This document shows positions 41,918 to 54,028 of a stretch of DNA of 60,344 nucleotides, in pieces. The position numbers and the translations under genes were made by a program. The notes beneath the pieces were generated by a model, which saw only the letters and a program-made list of their open reading frames with translations, was not told where the DNA came from and ran no database searches. Source of the stretch: Lachnospiraceae bacterium (GTDB taxonomy: Bacteria > Bacillota > Clostridia > Lachnospirales > Lachnospiraceae); NCBI GenBank assembly GCA_017449765.1, contig JAFTFE010000171.1, positions 1-60,344 on the forward strand, written 5' to 3'. Positions within the stretch are counted from its first letter, which is position 1, and every line of letters begins with the position of its first letter.

Positions 41918-42165
41918 ATCTGCATTTATCCTTGTTTAGTCCGTATGACTCTCAAAAATATACAGACTAAATCTGCACTTATCCCTGTTTAGTCCGTATA
42001 ACTTCCAAAAATATACAGACTAAATCTGCACTTATCCTTGTTTAGTCCGTACAACTTTCAAAAATATACGGACTAAATCCGCGCCTACCTCTGTTTAGTC
42101 TGTACAGCTTTTAAAAATATACAGACCAAATCTTCACACTGCCCAATTTAGTCTGTATCGCTCTA
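41901..42165. repeat. Five-unit 53-bp tandem array, each unit an inverted repeat
   Basis: Units start at 41901, 41954, 42007, 42060 and 42113, each exactly 53 bases and beginning AAAAATATAC (AAAAATGTGC in the first). Each has a left arm like TACAGACTAAAT and a right arm like TTTAGTCCGTA around a ~16-base middle, so each can fold into a hairpin. Units 2 and 3 are nearly identical; unit 5 has drifted most. Base changes in arms are partly matched (GGACTAAA in unit 4). There is no direct-repeat/unique-spacer pattern, so this is not CRISPR. Confidence 0.88.
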
Positions 42166-42233
42166 TAAAAAGTTCGAACCCATGTAATATTTGGATCAAA
42201 AAACTATCTGATGTATTTTCATACGCGAAGTGT

Positions 42234-42513
42234 GTCGGTTATATAGAGGTGTAACTGCCTGCTAAATCACATTAAATGGGCGCTAAGTCGTATATAGGTC
42301 TTTTAAAGGACCGTATTGAGACGTGGCTACTTAATGAAAAATAAAAAGATATGACATACTTGCATTTATAAAGATGTATGTCATATCTTTTTATTTTGAA
42401 TTTAGTAGGCTTACGTCGAAATCCGAGTGAGAACGTGTCCCTTTGAAGACCTATATACGACAAGCCCCTTCAGTAAGTCTAATCAGGCAGTTATACCAAT
42501 CAATATAACCGAC
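42234..42513. repeat. 280-bp nested inverted repeat (MITE-like or structured RNA element)
   Basis: Four blocks on the left recur in reverse complement and in mirrored order on the right: GTCGGTTATAT (42234/42503), TAACTGCCTG (42252/42484), GTCGTATATAGGTCTT (42287/42446) and a perfect 22-bp block (42338-42359/42376-42397) around a 16-base loop. The stretches between blocks are similar but not identical. The central stem is flanked by A and T runs and may end asd transcripts. There is no coding potential and no clear target-site duplication. Confidence 0.85.
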
Positions 42514-42525
42514 CAACTCACATAT

Positions 42526-49537: not shown

Positions 49538-50620
49538 TTATATTCTTTCTGCTATTAAGCTGCCCATCTCATCACATTTAACCTGAGGCTCACCCGGTTT
49601 AGCTATGTCGATTGTGCGGTAGCCTTCTTCAAGGACTTTTTTAACCGCATTTTCAATGGCATCCGCTTCTTTATCAAGGTCAAATGTATATCGAAGCATC
49701 ATAGCTGCGCTTAAGATTGTTGCAATAGGATTTGCTATATTTTGTCCCGCTATATCAGGAGCCGAACCGCCTGATGGTTCATAAAGTCCGAACTTTGTTT
49801 CATTAAGCGATGCTGAAGAAAGCATTCCGATCGAACCTGTTATCATGGATGCTTCATCCGAAAGAATGTCACCGAACATGTTCTCGGTAAGCATTACATC
49901 GAACTGAGCCGGATCCTTTACAAGCTGCATGGCGGCATTATCTACAAGCATTGTTTCATATTCCACCTCAGGATAATCCTTTGCAACTTCTTCGGTTACC
50001 TTTCTCCAAAGTCTGGATGAATCAAGTACGTTTGCCTTATCTACAAGGGTAACCTTTTTTCTTCTCTTCACAGCTATATCAAAGCCCTTAACAGCTATTC
50101 TTCTAATCTCGTTTTCATTGTATGTAAGTGTATCAACCGCTGTCATTACACCATCGATTTCCTTGGTGTATCTTTCTCCGAAATAAAGTCCTCCGGTAAG
50201 CTCACGCATTATCATCATATCAAAGCCTCTTTCGGCAACACTTTCCTTTAAAGGACAAGCCTCTTTAAGTTCAGGATAAAGATATGCAGGACGAAGATTT
50301 GCAAAAAGTCCAAGTTCCTTACGGATTTTTAAAAGTCCCGCTTCAGGTCTTTTATTTGGCGGAAGCTTATACCAAGGTGAGGTCTGAGTATTTCCACCAA
50401 TCGAGCCAAGCAAAACCGCGTCCTTGGACTTTGCTATGGCAACTGTTTCGTCAGTAAGAGGATCACCGTATTTGTCTATGGAGCAGCCACCCATAAGAAG
50501 CTGTTCATAGTTAAATGTATGACCGAATTTTTTTCCTACCGCATCAAGCACCTTCATGGCTTCGGTTACGACCTCGGGACCGATGCCGTCACCCTTAATT
50601 ACTGCTATATTACAATTCAT
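49538..50620 (-). CDS. leuB: 3-isopropylmalate dehydrogenase
   Basis: 360 residues. The N-terminus is NIAVIKGDGIGPEVVTEAMK, the substrate-binding part MRELTGGLYFGERY, the metal-binding aspartates in ENMFGDILSDEASM, and the NAD part GSAPDIAGQNIANP. It performs the oxidative step of leucine synthesis. Its leader holds copy A of the conserved hairpin element, only about 20 bases before the start, next to the GGAAGAG ribosome site. Confidence 0.96.
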   Translation of the reverse strand: MNCNIAVIKGDGIGPEVVTEAMKVLDAVGKKFGHTFNYEQLLMGGCSIDKYGDPLTDETVAIAKSKDAVLLGSIGGNTQTSPWYKLPPNKRPEAGLLKIRKELGLFANLRPAYLYPELKEACPLKESVAERGFDMMIMRELTGGLYFGERYTKEIDGVMTAVDTLTYNENEIRRIAVKGFDIAVKRRKKVTLVDKANVLDSSRLWRKVTEEVAKDYPEVEYETMLVDNAAMQLVKDPAQFDVMLTENMFGDILSDEASMITGSIGMLSSASLNETKFGLYEPSGGSAPDIAGQNIANPIATILSAAMMLRYTFDLDKEADAIENAVKKVLEEGYRTIDIAKPGEPQVKCDEMGSLIAERI

Positions 50621-50642
50621 TTTTCTCTTCCTTTCTCATTAC

Positions 50643-50781
50643 GGAAGTAATTGTATATGATAAATTCATCGCAGGCACGCTCTCGCTACACTCACACGCA
50701 ACGGTACTAAGTTCGAAAACCTCACTAAGTACCGGCGTGTTCAAAGTACCTGCTTATGAATTATCATATCCAATTACTTCC
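50643..50781 (-). repeat. Hairpin element copy A, upstream of leuB
   Basis: Outer arms GGAAGTAATTG (50643-50653) and CAATTACTTCC (50771-50781) are perfect; next come TATGATAAATTCAT and ATGAATTATCATA (one bulge). The core 50670-50755 begins CGCAGGCACGCTCTCGCTA and ends ACCTGCTT, with an inner stem CGGTACT/AGTACCG. Inside, ACACGC and GCGTGT can extend the inner stem in this copy. The same core occurs at 51747-51885 and 53853-53940. Confidence 0.88.
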
Positions 50782-50826
50782 TGTTATTTTTAAGTTCTAC
50801 TCAAATAAATTGTATAATTATTTATT

Positions 50827-51696
50827 CTATAACTTCTTACCTGAAAGCTTCTCATATCCTTCGAGGTAAATTGCTATGGTTTTATCAACTACGTCCTGTG
50901 GGAGTGTCCAGTTGTGACCTTCATGGCTCTTGAGCCAGTCACGGGCGAACTGCTTATCAAAAGACGGCTGGGAATGTCCCGGCTCGTATACGTCTGCCGG
51001 CCAGAATCTGGAGCTGTCCGGTGTAAGCATTTCATCACCGAGAACCATATTTCCATCTTCATCAAGTCCGAATTCAAATTTTGTATCTGCTATGATTATG
51101 CCCTTGGTAAGTGCATAATCGGCACATTTCTTATAAAGTGCTATTGTATAATCTCTGAGCTTTGAAGCGTATTCCTCACCCTTACCAGGGAAATACTTTT
51201 CAAGATGTGCCACACTCTGCTCATAGGAAATATTTTCATCATGTTCACCTATCTCAGCCTTTGTTGAAGGTGTGTATATCGGCTCCGGGAGCTTATCTGA
51301 CTCCTTTAATCCTTCAGGAAGTTTGATACCGCACACGGTGCCATCCTTCTTATAACTCTCCCAACCGCTTCCTGTTATGTATCCACGCACGATACACTCG
51401 ATTGGAAGCATCTCAAGCTTCTTACACATCATTGAATTACCGTCAAACTGCGGCTGTCTGAAATATTCAGGCATATCATTTACATCGACAGATATCATAT
51501 GATTAGGAATGATATCCTCTGTCATATCAAACCAAAGCTTTGACATCTGTGTGAGCACTGTACCCTTCTTGGTTACCACATTATTAAGTATTACATCAAA
51601 ACAGCTTATTCTGTCAGTTGCAACCATAATAAGGTTATCGCCGTTATCGTATATCTCACGTACCTTTCCTTCTTTTACCGGTTTAAATTCTTTCAT
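50827..51696 (-). CDS. purC: Phosphoribosylaminoimidazole-succinocarboxamide synthase
   Basis: 289 residues. It begins MKEFKPVKEGKVREIYD, then DRISCFDVILNN, ECIVRGYITGSGWESYK and LTPDSSRFWPADVYEPG, the standard SAICAR synthetase motifs. It acts in purine synthesis and is an odd guest between leuD and leuB. Its leader contains hairpin copy B. GGGAGG lies just before the ATG. Confidence 0.96.
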   Translation of the reverse strand: MKEFKPVKEGKVREIYDNGDNLIMVATDRISCFDVILNNVVTKKGTVLTQMSKLWFDMTEDIIPNHMISVDVNDMPEYFRQPQFDGNSMMCKKLEMLPIECIVRGYITGSGWESYKKDGTVCGIKLPEGLKESDKLPEPIYTPSTKAEIGEHDENISYEQSVAHLEKYFPGKGEEYASKLRDYTIALYKKCADYALTKGIIIADTKFEFGLDEDGNMVLGDEMLTPDSSRFWPADVYEPGHSQPSFDKQFARDWLKSHEGHNWTLPQDVVDKTIAIYLEGYEKLSGKKL

Positions 51697-51718
51697 GTTT
51701 TCCTCCCTTATTCTTTGA

Positions 51719-51913
51719 GGTACTTACTCGACTATGATTAATTCATCGCAGGCACGCTCTCGCTAAGATTCGCTCGCAGCGGTACTAACTTCTTTAATCC
51801 TGAATCATCATATTAACTCGCTTCTCTCGTTATATGATGCTCCAGTCTTAAATCAGTAACTACCGGCGGCTCATATTACCTGCTTATGAATCAATCATAT
51901 CCGGCTAAGTGCC
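51719..51913 (-). repeat. Hairpin element copy B, upstream of purC, with an internal insertion
   Basis: Outer arms GGTACTTA (51719-51726) and TAAGTGCC (51906-51913, one G-U) enclose ATGATTAATTCAT (51734-51746) and ATGAATCAATCAT (51886-51898). The core (51747-51885) shares CGCAGGCACGCTCTCGCTAA and ACCGGCGGCTCATATTACCT with the other copies. It is about 50 bases longer: an extra segment at about 51790-51860 holds its own hairpin (ATCATATTAAC and GTTATATGAT). Confidence 0.85.
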
Positions 51914-51952
51914 GCTTAGTATTGTTGTGTAAATATAATTAAAGTAATTTAA

Positions 51953-52444
51953 TTATTGTTGTGTTGCATTTATTCTCGCTATAAGTCCGCCACTTTTTAT
52001 TATCTCCTGCATAAACGGCGGAAATGCCTGTCCCTTATACTCTGTGCCTTTGGTCTTGTCATATATCATTCCGGTATCGAAATCTATTTCGACCTCATCA
52101 CCTGCTTCAATTGCCTTGGCTGCCTCAGGACATTCTATAATAGGAAGTCCGATATTAATAGCATTTCTATAAAATATTCTTGCGAATGTCTCTGCTATTA
52201 CACAGCTTATACCCGATGCCTTTATGGCAATAGGTGCATGTTCTCTGGATGAGCCACATCCGAAGTTCTTATTTGCAACTATAATATCTCCCGGTTTAAC
52301 CCTCTTGACAAAATCCTTATCTATATCCTCCATACAGTTCTTGGCAAGTTCTGCCGGATCTGATGAATTGAGATATCGTGCAGGAATTATAACATCTGTA
52401 TCTACATTGTCGCCATATTTATGTACTGTTCCATTTGCTTTCAT
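51953..52444 (-). CDS. leuD: 3-isopropylmalate dehydratase small subunit
   Basis: 163 residues, short bacterial/archaeal LeuD type. It begins [20 protein letters not shown], with the substrate motif [19 protein letters not shown]. It pairs with LeuC to isomerise 2-isopropylmalate. AGGAGG is upstream of the ATG, 55 bases after leuC. Confidence 0.95.
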
Positions 52445-52498
52445 TTTTTACCTCCTAATTATGTAAACCAACTGATTTATTGTCAGAAATTTCTTTAA

Positions 52499-53764
52499 TT
52501 ACAGTCCAAGCTCACATGGACAGCTTATCTTACCTGTTATAGCTGATGCGGCAGCAACGGCAGGGCTTGCAAGGTAAACCTCTGAATCCACGTGTCCCAT
52601 TCTGCCTACGAAGTTACGATTGGTTGTAGATACAGCACGCTCACCGGCCGCCATAACTCCCATGTGTCCGCCCAGACATGGTCCACAGGTTGGTGTCGAA
52701 ACAATCGCTCCTGCTTTGATAAATATTTCCGTAAGTCCTTCATTTAACATCTGAAGATAAACATCCTGAGTTCCCGGTATTACGATAACTCTTACTCCGT
52801 CAGCAGCATGTCTGTCTTTCATTATCTCAGCAGCAATCCTCATATCTGAGATACGTCCGTTTGTACAGGAACCGATTACAACCTGATCTATCTTTATATC
52901 TCCCACTTCGTCGATTGTCTTAGTATTCTCAGGGAGATGAGGAAATGCTACCGTCGGCTTAAGTGTTGATAAGTCAATAGTATATTCTTCATCATATTCT
53001 GCATCCGGATCAGCCTCATACTTGGTATATGCTTTAGCCGAATGAGCCTTCATATACTCTTCGGTAAGCTCATCTACAGGGAATATACCATTTTTTGCTC
53101 CGGCCTCTATAGCCATATTTGCTATGGTAAATCTATCATCCATAGTAAGATTCTTTATTCCGTCTCCGACAAACTCCATTGAACGGTATAATGCACCATC
53201 CACTCCTATCATACCTATTATGTGAAGGATAACATCCTTACCGCTAACCCATTTAGCCTTTTCGCCAACTATATTAAACCTGATTGCAGACGGTACTTTG
53301 AACCAAGCTTTGCCTGTAACCATTCCGGCAGCCATATCTGTACTGCCTACACCTGTTGAAAATGCACCAAGTGCACCATATGTACATGTATGTGAATCAG
53401 CACCGATACAGGTTTCTCCGGCAACAATAAGTCCTTTCTCCGGGAGCAGTGCATGCTCGATTCCCATAGCACCTACATCAAAGAAATTCGTTATATCATA
53501 ATCCTTTGAAAATTCTCTTACACATTTACAATGCTCTGCACTCTTGATGTCCTTGTTCGGAGTAAAGTGATCCATAACAAGAGCAACCTTGTCCTTGTCA
53601 AACACTTCTTTCTTATTAAATTTCTCCATCTCGTGTATTGCTACAGGAGCAGTGACATCATTGGCTAATACCAAATCCAAGTCTGCCTCAATAAGCTGTC
53701 CTGCACATACACTTTCAAGTCCTGCATGAGCGGCAAGAATCTTCTGTGTCATTGTCATACCCAT
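52499..53764 (-). CDS. leuC: 3-isopropylmalate dehydratase large subunit
   Basis: 421 residues beginning [16 protein letters not shown] place the start at ATG 53762-53764, since GGAGGAA lies eight bases upstream; a longer frame from 53779 would put the ribosome site inside the gene. The Fe-S ligands are in [12 protein letters not shown] and [13 protein letters not shown], and [13 protein letters not shown] is present. Archaeal-type LeuC, as fits LeuD. Its leader has hairpin copy C, and a LysR gene diverges upstream. Confidence 0.95.
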
Positions 53765-53795
53765 ATCGTATTCCTCCATTAAAATCTTTTTTGAA

Positions 53796-53996
53796 GGCTT
53801 TTTGCATACCGGCTAAAATTTTTTAATCAGGTTATCCGGAAAATCAATGTACCGCAGGCACACTCTCGCTAAGATTCGCACGCAGCGGTACTAAGCTCGA
53901 AAATACCTCGCTAAGTACCGGCGGCTCATATTACCTGCTTGTACATTATTTTCCATCTAACCTATTCAAATTCTATTAAACAGTATGCAAAAAGCC
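53796..53996 (-). repeat. Hairpin element copy C, filling the leuC leader
   Basis: From outside in: GGCTTTTTGCATAC/GTATGCAAAAAGCC (53796/53983, perfect), AGGTTA/TAACCT (53829/53958), GGAAAAT/ATTTTCC (53838/53948) and AATGTAC/GTACATT (53846/53941). The shared core is at 53853-53940 with CGCAGG at its start and CCTGCTT at its end. It lies between the predicted leuC transcription start and the ribosome site, so it would be in the mRNA. Confidence 0.88.
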
Positions 53997-54028
53997 GCCA
54001 TTAAACTGATTGTAATTGTAACATAATA

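Follow-up and report, generated by a model that had tools for sequence, protein, structure and literature searches.

An intergenic hairpin family with covarying arms, dispersed through Lachnospiraceae and probably folding as RNA

We analyzed hairpin elements in a 60,344-nucleotide (nt) stretch of Lachnospiraceae DNA (contig JAFTFE010000171.1 of assembly GCA_017449765.1; the whole stretch is hereafter called the window). A preliminary description had pointed out three intergenic copies in it, upstream of leuB, purC and leuC, each with a similar core enclosed by two arms. These hairpins (units A, B and C) belong to a dispersed, repeat-like family that is confined to Lachnospiraceae as far as sampled, and whose arms are inherited at each site, are slow to change, and change in pairs. 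That the element is maintained as an RNA fold is, in our view, very likely. The fuller reading, in which an RNA fold also acts in cis at the ends of mRNAs, in their processing or stability, we regard as somewhat better than an even prospect. The family covaries, is RNA-like, has no Rfam entry, and was matched in at least 167 of the 397 Lachnospiraceae genomes sampled, some of which carry dozens of copies. If the units do set mRNA ends, they would influence how operons are expressed throughout a bacterial family that is prominent in gut and rumen. They also offer natural material for distinguishing selection on an RNA fold from DNA-level correction between arms and, because the arms drift in letters while keeping the fold, sequence-based repeat finders would split or miss the family.

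Anatomy and spread of the family

Read in transcript sense, a unit consists of a first arm, ATAAGCAGGTA, a stem CGCCGGTACTTAG...CTTAGTACCG, TAGCGAGAGCGTGCCTGCGAT, and a second arm ending in CC. The arms are 24–28 nt (base pairs, bp) long at 51 of 69 independent sites in the host's genus and nearly free in sequence; the first arm commonly begins with GG or GGTTG (survey of 59 rows, excluding repeats of one arm and arms over 29). The conserved core (~85 nt) comes in short (83–87 nt), 97-nt and long (134–137 nt) forms, the long form carrying an extra hairpin at its apex. The core stem holds a U.U mismatch (72 of 75 rows have U in that column). Of 173 site-loop entries for the side hairpin, 167 show a capping GNRA loop (GAGA 94, GAAA 39, GCAA 15, GGGA 15, GGAA 4) and none shows GNYA. 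Two copies, L238 and L434, yielded no loop (L-numbers denote individual copies or loci; G000 is the host genome and other G-numbers are genomes of relatives). The predicted fold comprises an arm helix and a conserved core stem, with the GNRA-capped side hairpin branching off at a three-way junction. At the orthologous sites L164 and L158 the arms are identical, yet the core is short in one and long in the other.

The three cores that had been placed at positions 50670, 51747 and 53853 (+ strand) are real: CGCAGGCACNCTCTCGCTA, allowing up to 3 mismatches, matched three times in the window vs. a mean of 0.00 over 100 shuffles. When the transcribed strand was folded as RNA, z-scores were -9.05 for unit A (139 nt) and -4.87 for unit C (117 nt); the fold of unit B was predicted without shuffled controls, so the z-scores cover A and C.

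We built a covariance model (R1) from 11 short copies. In the host genome the pattern, with up to 3 mismatches allowed, occurs 22 times, and the model gives 39 matches at an expectation value (E) up to 0.1 (40 in G029); copies from this search were fetched only among the matches listed. A DNA search found the element in 26 of the 37 genomes of the host's genus. Across Lachnospiraceae, the covariance-model search that the preliminary description had proposed matched at least 167 of 397 sampled genomes (147 of 334 genera), with at most 10 candidates scored per genome, so that copy numbers are floors. A class-wide search matched at least 11 of 391 genomes, 11/11 within Lachnospiraceae; the family-wide and class-wide searches both used stricter filters that lose weak matches. 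An exact 22-base pattern retrieved 79 named stretches, many derived from rumen or gut assemblies, and all but three were labeled Lachnospiraceae (the others being one Butyrivibrio, one Clostridium and one Muribaculaceae). The Muribaculaceae entry (L285), labeled as another phylum, has one exact match and is possibly a mis-binned contig.

With one unit as query, no match was found in phages and plasmids, and no viral contig matched one exact 18-mer. The covariance models of Rfam 15 gave 0 matches in the window at gathering score and, at E up to 10, just three sub-threshold matches for unit A. On 20 loci of other genera they gave a single match, a glycine riboswitch lying outside the unit. Nothing in a literature search of open-access papers was recognized as this hairpin family. 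These results agree with the earlier impression that no named family applies.

Covariation and arm evolution

In an alignment of 75 distinct rows (37 genomes, 35 genera), 33 of 35 pairs vary on both sides with pairing kept, and 95.1% of cells are paired vs. 71.9% in shuffles and 25–47% when slid; this alignment was fitted to the model, counts related rows several times, and includes the window's genus as one of the 35. Pairing extends well into the arms. Beyond the inner 8 nt, an arm pairs with its own partner at a score of 4 or more in 164 of 166 copies (median 16), vs. a median of 0.7 against arms of other genomes' copies, where only 3 of 466 tests reach a score of 8. Among non-orthologous copies in four genomes, identity is 0.60 for arms, 0.57 for flanks and 0.82 for cores.

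Orthologous sites were compared in 44 pairs falling into 22 groups, pairs inside a group not being independent. Two of 46 pairs (L150-L179 and L179-L185; one flank each) were left out, and the partial copies L040 and L049 were excluded from these comparisons and from later analyses. Among G026, G029 and G011, 38 double changes with pairing kept were found vs. 11 one-sided changes, where independent change would predict 3.5 vs. 80. The pairs with G000 gave 62 vs. 13 (independent expectation 11.1 vs. 114.7). Counted once per group, and restricted to pairs with left-arm identity of at least 0.75, there were 47 double changes (28 transitions and 19 transversions), 9 one-sided changes with pairing kept, and 6 that broke a pair. 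In close ortholog pairs the median identity of arms was 0.94 vs. 0.73 for the adjacent flank, with arms higher in 17 of 23; for pairs with G000 the values were 0.77 vs. 0.67, with arms higher in 13 of 21. It is from this comparison, together with the paired changes, that we conclude that arms are inherited per site and change slowly. The suggestion that pairing kept under changing sequence reflects selection for the fold is thus borne out by compensated changes between orthologs and by covariation across genera, and also by the wobble pairs described below.

With regard to the cores, identity within G000 (0.854) is higher than from G000 to orthologs (0.806–0.819), a modest sign of concerted change. 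Among closer species, orthologous cores are more alike (0.92–0.98) than non-orthologous ones.

Wobble pairs and the selected form

G.T pairs on the core-sense strand of the arms outnumber A.C pairs by 109:41 in a first set of 166 copies, and by 143:49 over the independent sites of a larger orientation set (226 copies at 157 independent sites). The ratio depends on the flanking genes, whose orientation was inferred from simple open-frame calls: G.U:A.C is 85:19 where the unit is sense to both genes and 33:21 where it is antisense (Fisher p = 0.007). In the model columns the counts are 99 vs. 33. An excess of G.U tied to the orientation of neighboring genes points to RNA and, together with the GNRA rule, favors RNA over single-stranded DNA as the selected form.

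Placement relative to genes and a possible role

The 69 independent sites in the host's genus comprise 45 sense, 18 antisense, 4 divergent, 1 convergent and 1 undefined (sense vs. antisense, p = 0.0009). Sense units there sit just ahead of genes, with a median of 25 nt from unit end to start codon and 37 of 44 within 40 nt (start codons were located for 44 of the 45 sites, and arms were taken as 26 nt). This regular placement fits the proposal that the hairpins are leader RNAs or mRNA-processing signals, and we infer that units in sense orientation act on mRNA in cis.

The most likely job would be to set mRNA ends between genes of an operon. A double-strand RNase of the RNase III type might bind or cut the long arm duplex; the leftover hairpin, sitting just ahead of the ribosome site, could then protect the message that follows, and the conserved core may fix the position or bind a second factor. 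Arms of free sequence and near-constant length would suit an enzyme that recognizes duplex and ignores the base sequence. We suggest a role in RNase III-type processing or stability because of the analogy with the CREE elements of Neisseria, which are compared below.

Several observations weigh against this RNA-based cis role and should be set beside it. Outside the host's genus, the 88 sites are evenly oriented (sense 29, antisense 34, mixed 22, undefined 3), and a start codon follows within 40 nt for only 3 of 26 sense units; a leader role is therefore not family-wide. In the genus itself, antisense units lie close to where the adjoining gene stops (median distance 16.5 nt, and within 40 nt for 14 of 18), a position that an insertion preference could explain. 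The wobble bias has limits too: mixed-orientation sites also favor G.U (24:9), removal of one recurrent column reduces the model-column excess to a weak 51:33 (p = 0.06), and under the laxest arm settings it fades to 177:144 (p = 0.07). The 19 transversions among the 47 compensated changes are more than we would expect if all had passed through G.U. Finally, the unit is absent from up to 230 of 397 family genomes (a count that may include weak matches lost to the stricter filters), and so is dispensable. The shared orientation noted for A, B and C does not hold in other genera.

The genes following the units are diverse. Of ten more downstream proteins of the host, six pass an NCBIfam cut-off (trpD, proA, amt, phosphoglycerate mutase, GPR protease and sufB), two match below it, and two match nothing. 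A link to biosynthetic genes, apparent from the window, is consequently not general, as amt, phosphoglycerate mutase, GPR protease and sufB show. A riboswitch or attenuator leader of one regulon was rejected in view of this diversity and the occurrence of both orientations. An intrinsic terminator was likewise rejected, since 5 or more T in 8 bases occur at the arm end at just 4 of 69 independent genus sites; a terminator scan, blind to loops over 8 bases, found none at the units. One copy (L025, on contig C63 of G000) has lost most of its core and kept both arms, with a short T run after one arm on the other strand, and looks as if it is becoming a terminator.

Gain, loss and mobility

It is possible, though we think it less likely, that the units are selfish, non-autonomous mobile repeats. 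On this view an enzyme would act on the hairpin in its RNA or single-stranded DNA form, the position at gene edges would reflect where the repeat prefers to insert, and any effects on genes would be by-products. The copy numbers in G000 and G029, the patchy occurrence among genomes and the even orientation in other genera would all be consistent with this, as would eight G122 units whose near-identical 105-nt cores (differing at one position) are enclosed by unlike arms, the paired inverted copies at several loci, and three G223 units lying within a longer inverted repeat. Against this stand the 22 orthologous groups, common to species and with their arms kept paired, since a dead insert would not need pairing, as well as the variation of the G.U bias with the orientation of flanking genes and the lack of phage or plasmid matches. 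No mobilizing enzyme was found. Specifically, the Y1 transposase PF01797 is present in 8 of 37 congeners, in only 2 of the 15 with 10 or more match rows, and not in the host; among the congeners examined, Y1 transposases are no general agent, and mobilization by RAYT was rejected on these grounds. The idea of a mobile hairpin thus fits the dispersal and copy number, and neither an enzyme nor a clear insertion event was found.

Sites do differ in occupancy. Site A is empty in G001 and G009, with a spacer of 18–19 bases, site C is empty in the same two genomes, and site B is empty in G009, one arm remaining in G011. In a comparison of G122 with its congeners G434 and G433 (flanks 86–100% identical), the whole unit is missing at L122 and L124 (in G434) and at L128 (in G433), and these empty sites give no clear target-site duplication. 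Three other units (L123, L125, L126) are shortened in G434 at short repeats, and L121 is present in both G433 and G434. Direct repeats were seen by eye only around the G223 units.

As separate observations, the longer inverted repeat around L137-L139 of G223 has ends like AGGTAATTGCGAAAC, and L050 of G000 is similarly enclosed, by GATAATTGCGAAATC. L139 has a 14-base direct repeat on its flanks, as if a miniature inverted-repeat transposable element (MITE) had captured the unit. Inverted pairs of units within about 200 bases occur at L136, L215, L220, L245, L246, L248 and L206. At the leuB/purC site in G026 and G030 (L086, L088), a tandem array of another hairpin, CAAACAGGTAACAAATCTTG...TTTTGTTACCGGC, replaces unit A.

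A speculative combination, to which we give little credence, is that the element spreads through its RNA fold by way of a Lachnospiraceae ribonucleoprotein machinery, swapping cores between sites, with the GNRA junction as recognition site and the free arms as a structural end, and that one genus recruited it as a standard mRNA-end module.

Arm pairing might also persist without selection, if template switching during replication (quasipalindrome correction) copied one arm onto the other. We judge this improbable. The 47 double vs. 15 one-sided changes at modest divergence, with 19 transversions among the 47, are what such copying would leave, and the arms in the genus are nearly all Watson-Crick (1917 of 1985 ungapped positions); moreover, arm lengths of orthologs can shift by an equal step on both sides (L033 vs. 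L150 and L185). Copying would, however, predict neither the dependence of the G.U excess on gene orientation nor the recurrence over sites and species of a one-base bulge beside ATTCAT (L032, L034, L145, L155, L181), and mismatched arms persist in three species at L121. It also leaves the GNRA rule and the conserved U.U mismatch unexplained.

The last alternative, raised in the preliminary description, is that a core inserts into an older palindrome, or that insertion duplicates the flank in inverted form, each site thereby supplying its own arms. It once seemed likely to us, given near-identical cores with unlike arms (L044 and L047 differ at 1 of 136 core positions) and given L125, which in G434 has lost the core and one arm and kept the other, but we dropped it as highly improbable once empty sites had been compared: no palindrome is present where the unit is absent (A and C in G001/G009; B in G009; L122 and L124 in G434; L128 in G433), L125 fits a deletion between two ATAAAT, like those at TATGA (L123) and AACG (L126), and arms are near-constant in length with GG...CC ends, those of G122 having a weak consensus among themselves, as do those of G384.

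Comparison with known systems

ERIC/RU and BOX elements are likewise modular intergenic hairpins of ~100–200 bases with longer forms; they occur in other taxa and their stem sequence is conserved, unlike that of the Lachnospiraceae unit. We know of no GNRA junction in either. The unit does not resemble a MITE in its terminal inverted repeats, which are not conserved in sequence between copies: arms of non-orthologous copies are no more alike than flanks (0.60 vs. 0.57), and only the outer GG...CC is shared. The same figures separate the unit from the CREE elements of Neisseria, whose inverted repeats are conserved in sequence. CREE/NEMIS nonetheless form the closest working model, being described as inverted repeats that enclose a conserved core beside genes and reported to be bound, cleaved or protected by RNase III (PMC2649163). 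Like REP/REPIN sequences with RAYT (PMC3116915, PMC3733652), the units are dispersed intergenic palindromes and also occur as inverted doublets; the Lachnospiraceae unit differs in being longer, in its variable stem and conserved core, and in the lack of a Y1 transposase in the host and most copy-rich congeners.

The published description of MRSC-65-2, one of a set of mobile/repeat sequence candidates, also recalls our units, with dozens of copies per genome, covariation, inconsistent orientation and a possibly selfish nature, and its authors leave open whether the RNA or the DNA form matters (PMC11109978). By that description, MRSC-65-2 has one long stem with a UYCCGG repeat and occurs in diverse phyla (PMC11109978), whereas the Lachnospiraceae unit has a three-way junction with a GNRA side hairpin and was matched in the class sample only within Lachnospiraceae. 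On the published description, we therefore rejected membership for a three-way-junction unit found in 11 of 391 class genomes, all of one family.

Units and neighboring genes in the window

The positions of the units are given in Table 1. The genes on the - strand run leuC, leuD, purC, leuB, ilvD and acetolactate synthase large subunit, and all pass NCBIfam cut-offs, so the identities first proposed for leuB, purC and leuC stand. Units A, B and C are all in the sense of the flanking leuB, purC, leuD and leuC. They had been placed directly before ribosome sites, which agrees with the short distances between arm end and start codon of A (25 nt) and B (26 nt); from unit C it is 64 nt to the second in-frame ATG of leuC, the first ATG of the frame being 15 nt closer.

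Table 1. Hairpin units and an enclosing palindrome in the window
Feature	Position	Strand	Context and parts
Unit A, short form	50643..50781	-	between purC and leuB; arms 50643-50669 and 50756-50781, core 50670-50755
Unit B, long form with extra apical hairpin	51719..51913	-	between leuD and purC; core 51747-51885
Unit C, short form	53838..53954	-	before leuC; arms 53838-53852 and 53941-53954, core 53853-53940
Imperfect palindrome enclosing unit C	53787..54005	-	arms 53787-53844 and 53948-54005
Fourth unit, diverged, long form	42287..42461	+	antisense to asd, near asd stop; long arms

The covariance model matched unit A at 50663-50761 (105.4 bits), unit B at 51740-51891 (86 bits) and unit C at 53846-53946 (114.2 bits). 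In each copy the left arm pairs with the right arm, as had been noted. In unit B, 51733-51746 pairs well with 51886-51899, and pairing is imperfect further out, beyond about 14 bp. The arms had been described as wholly different between copies; this is true of the outer arms of A and B, and not of their inner arm, TGATaAATTCAT / TGATtAATTCAT, which they have in common. Indeed, the arms originally quoted were the outer part for A, the inner part for B and, in the second pair given for C, the outer part of the 58-nt palindrome around it. That palindrome is 71% complementary and includes GGCTTTTTGCATAC/GTATGCAAAAAGCC (53796-53809 and 53983-53996); the corresponding outer arm in G029, G026 and G030 has a different sequence, GGCGTGCCG/CGGCACGCC.

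All three copies first reported are genuine, and a fourth, diverged one had been missed, matching the model at 42298-42451 (55.8 bits, E = 1.9e-11). More inverted repeats surround it, reaching 42229-42518. Beside this unit, at 41935-42130, are direct repeats of ~53 bases in four consecutive copies, each a hairpin of the TTTAGTCCGTA...TACAGACTAAA type. The apex of unit B (51782-51860), like that of other long forms, is built of separate variable arms enclosing ATATTAACTC...CTCGTTATAT, and the apical extension of long forms is exchanged wholesale between orthologs.

When 50480-50990 was compared with L084 of G029 and L087 of G011, the first 143 bases of leuB matched G011 at 99.3% identity, and unit A together with its spacer was nearly identical to G029. 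By comparison, leuC is 87–88% identical to both genomes, and we take this difference as a sign of recent recombination within the operon.

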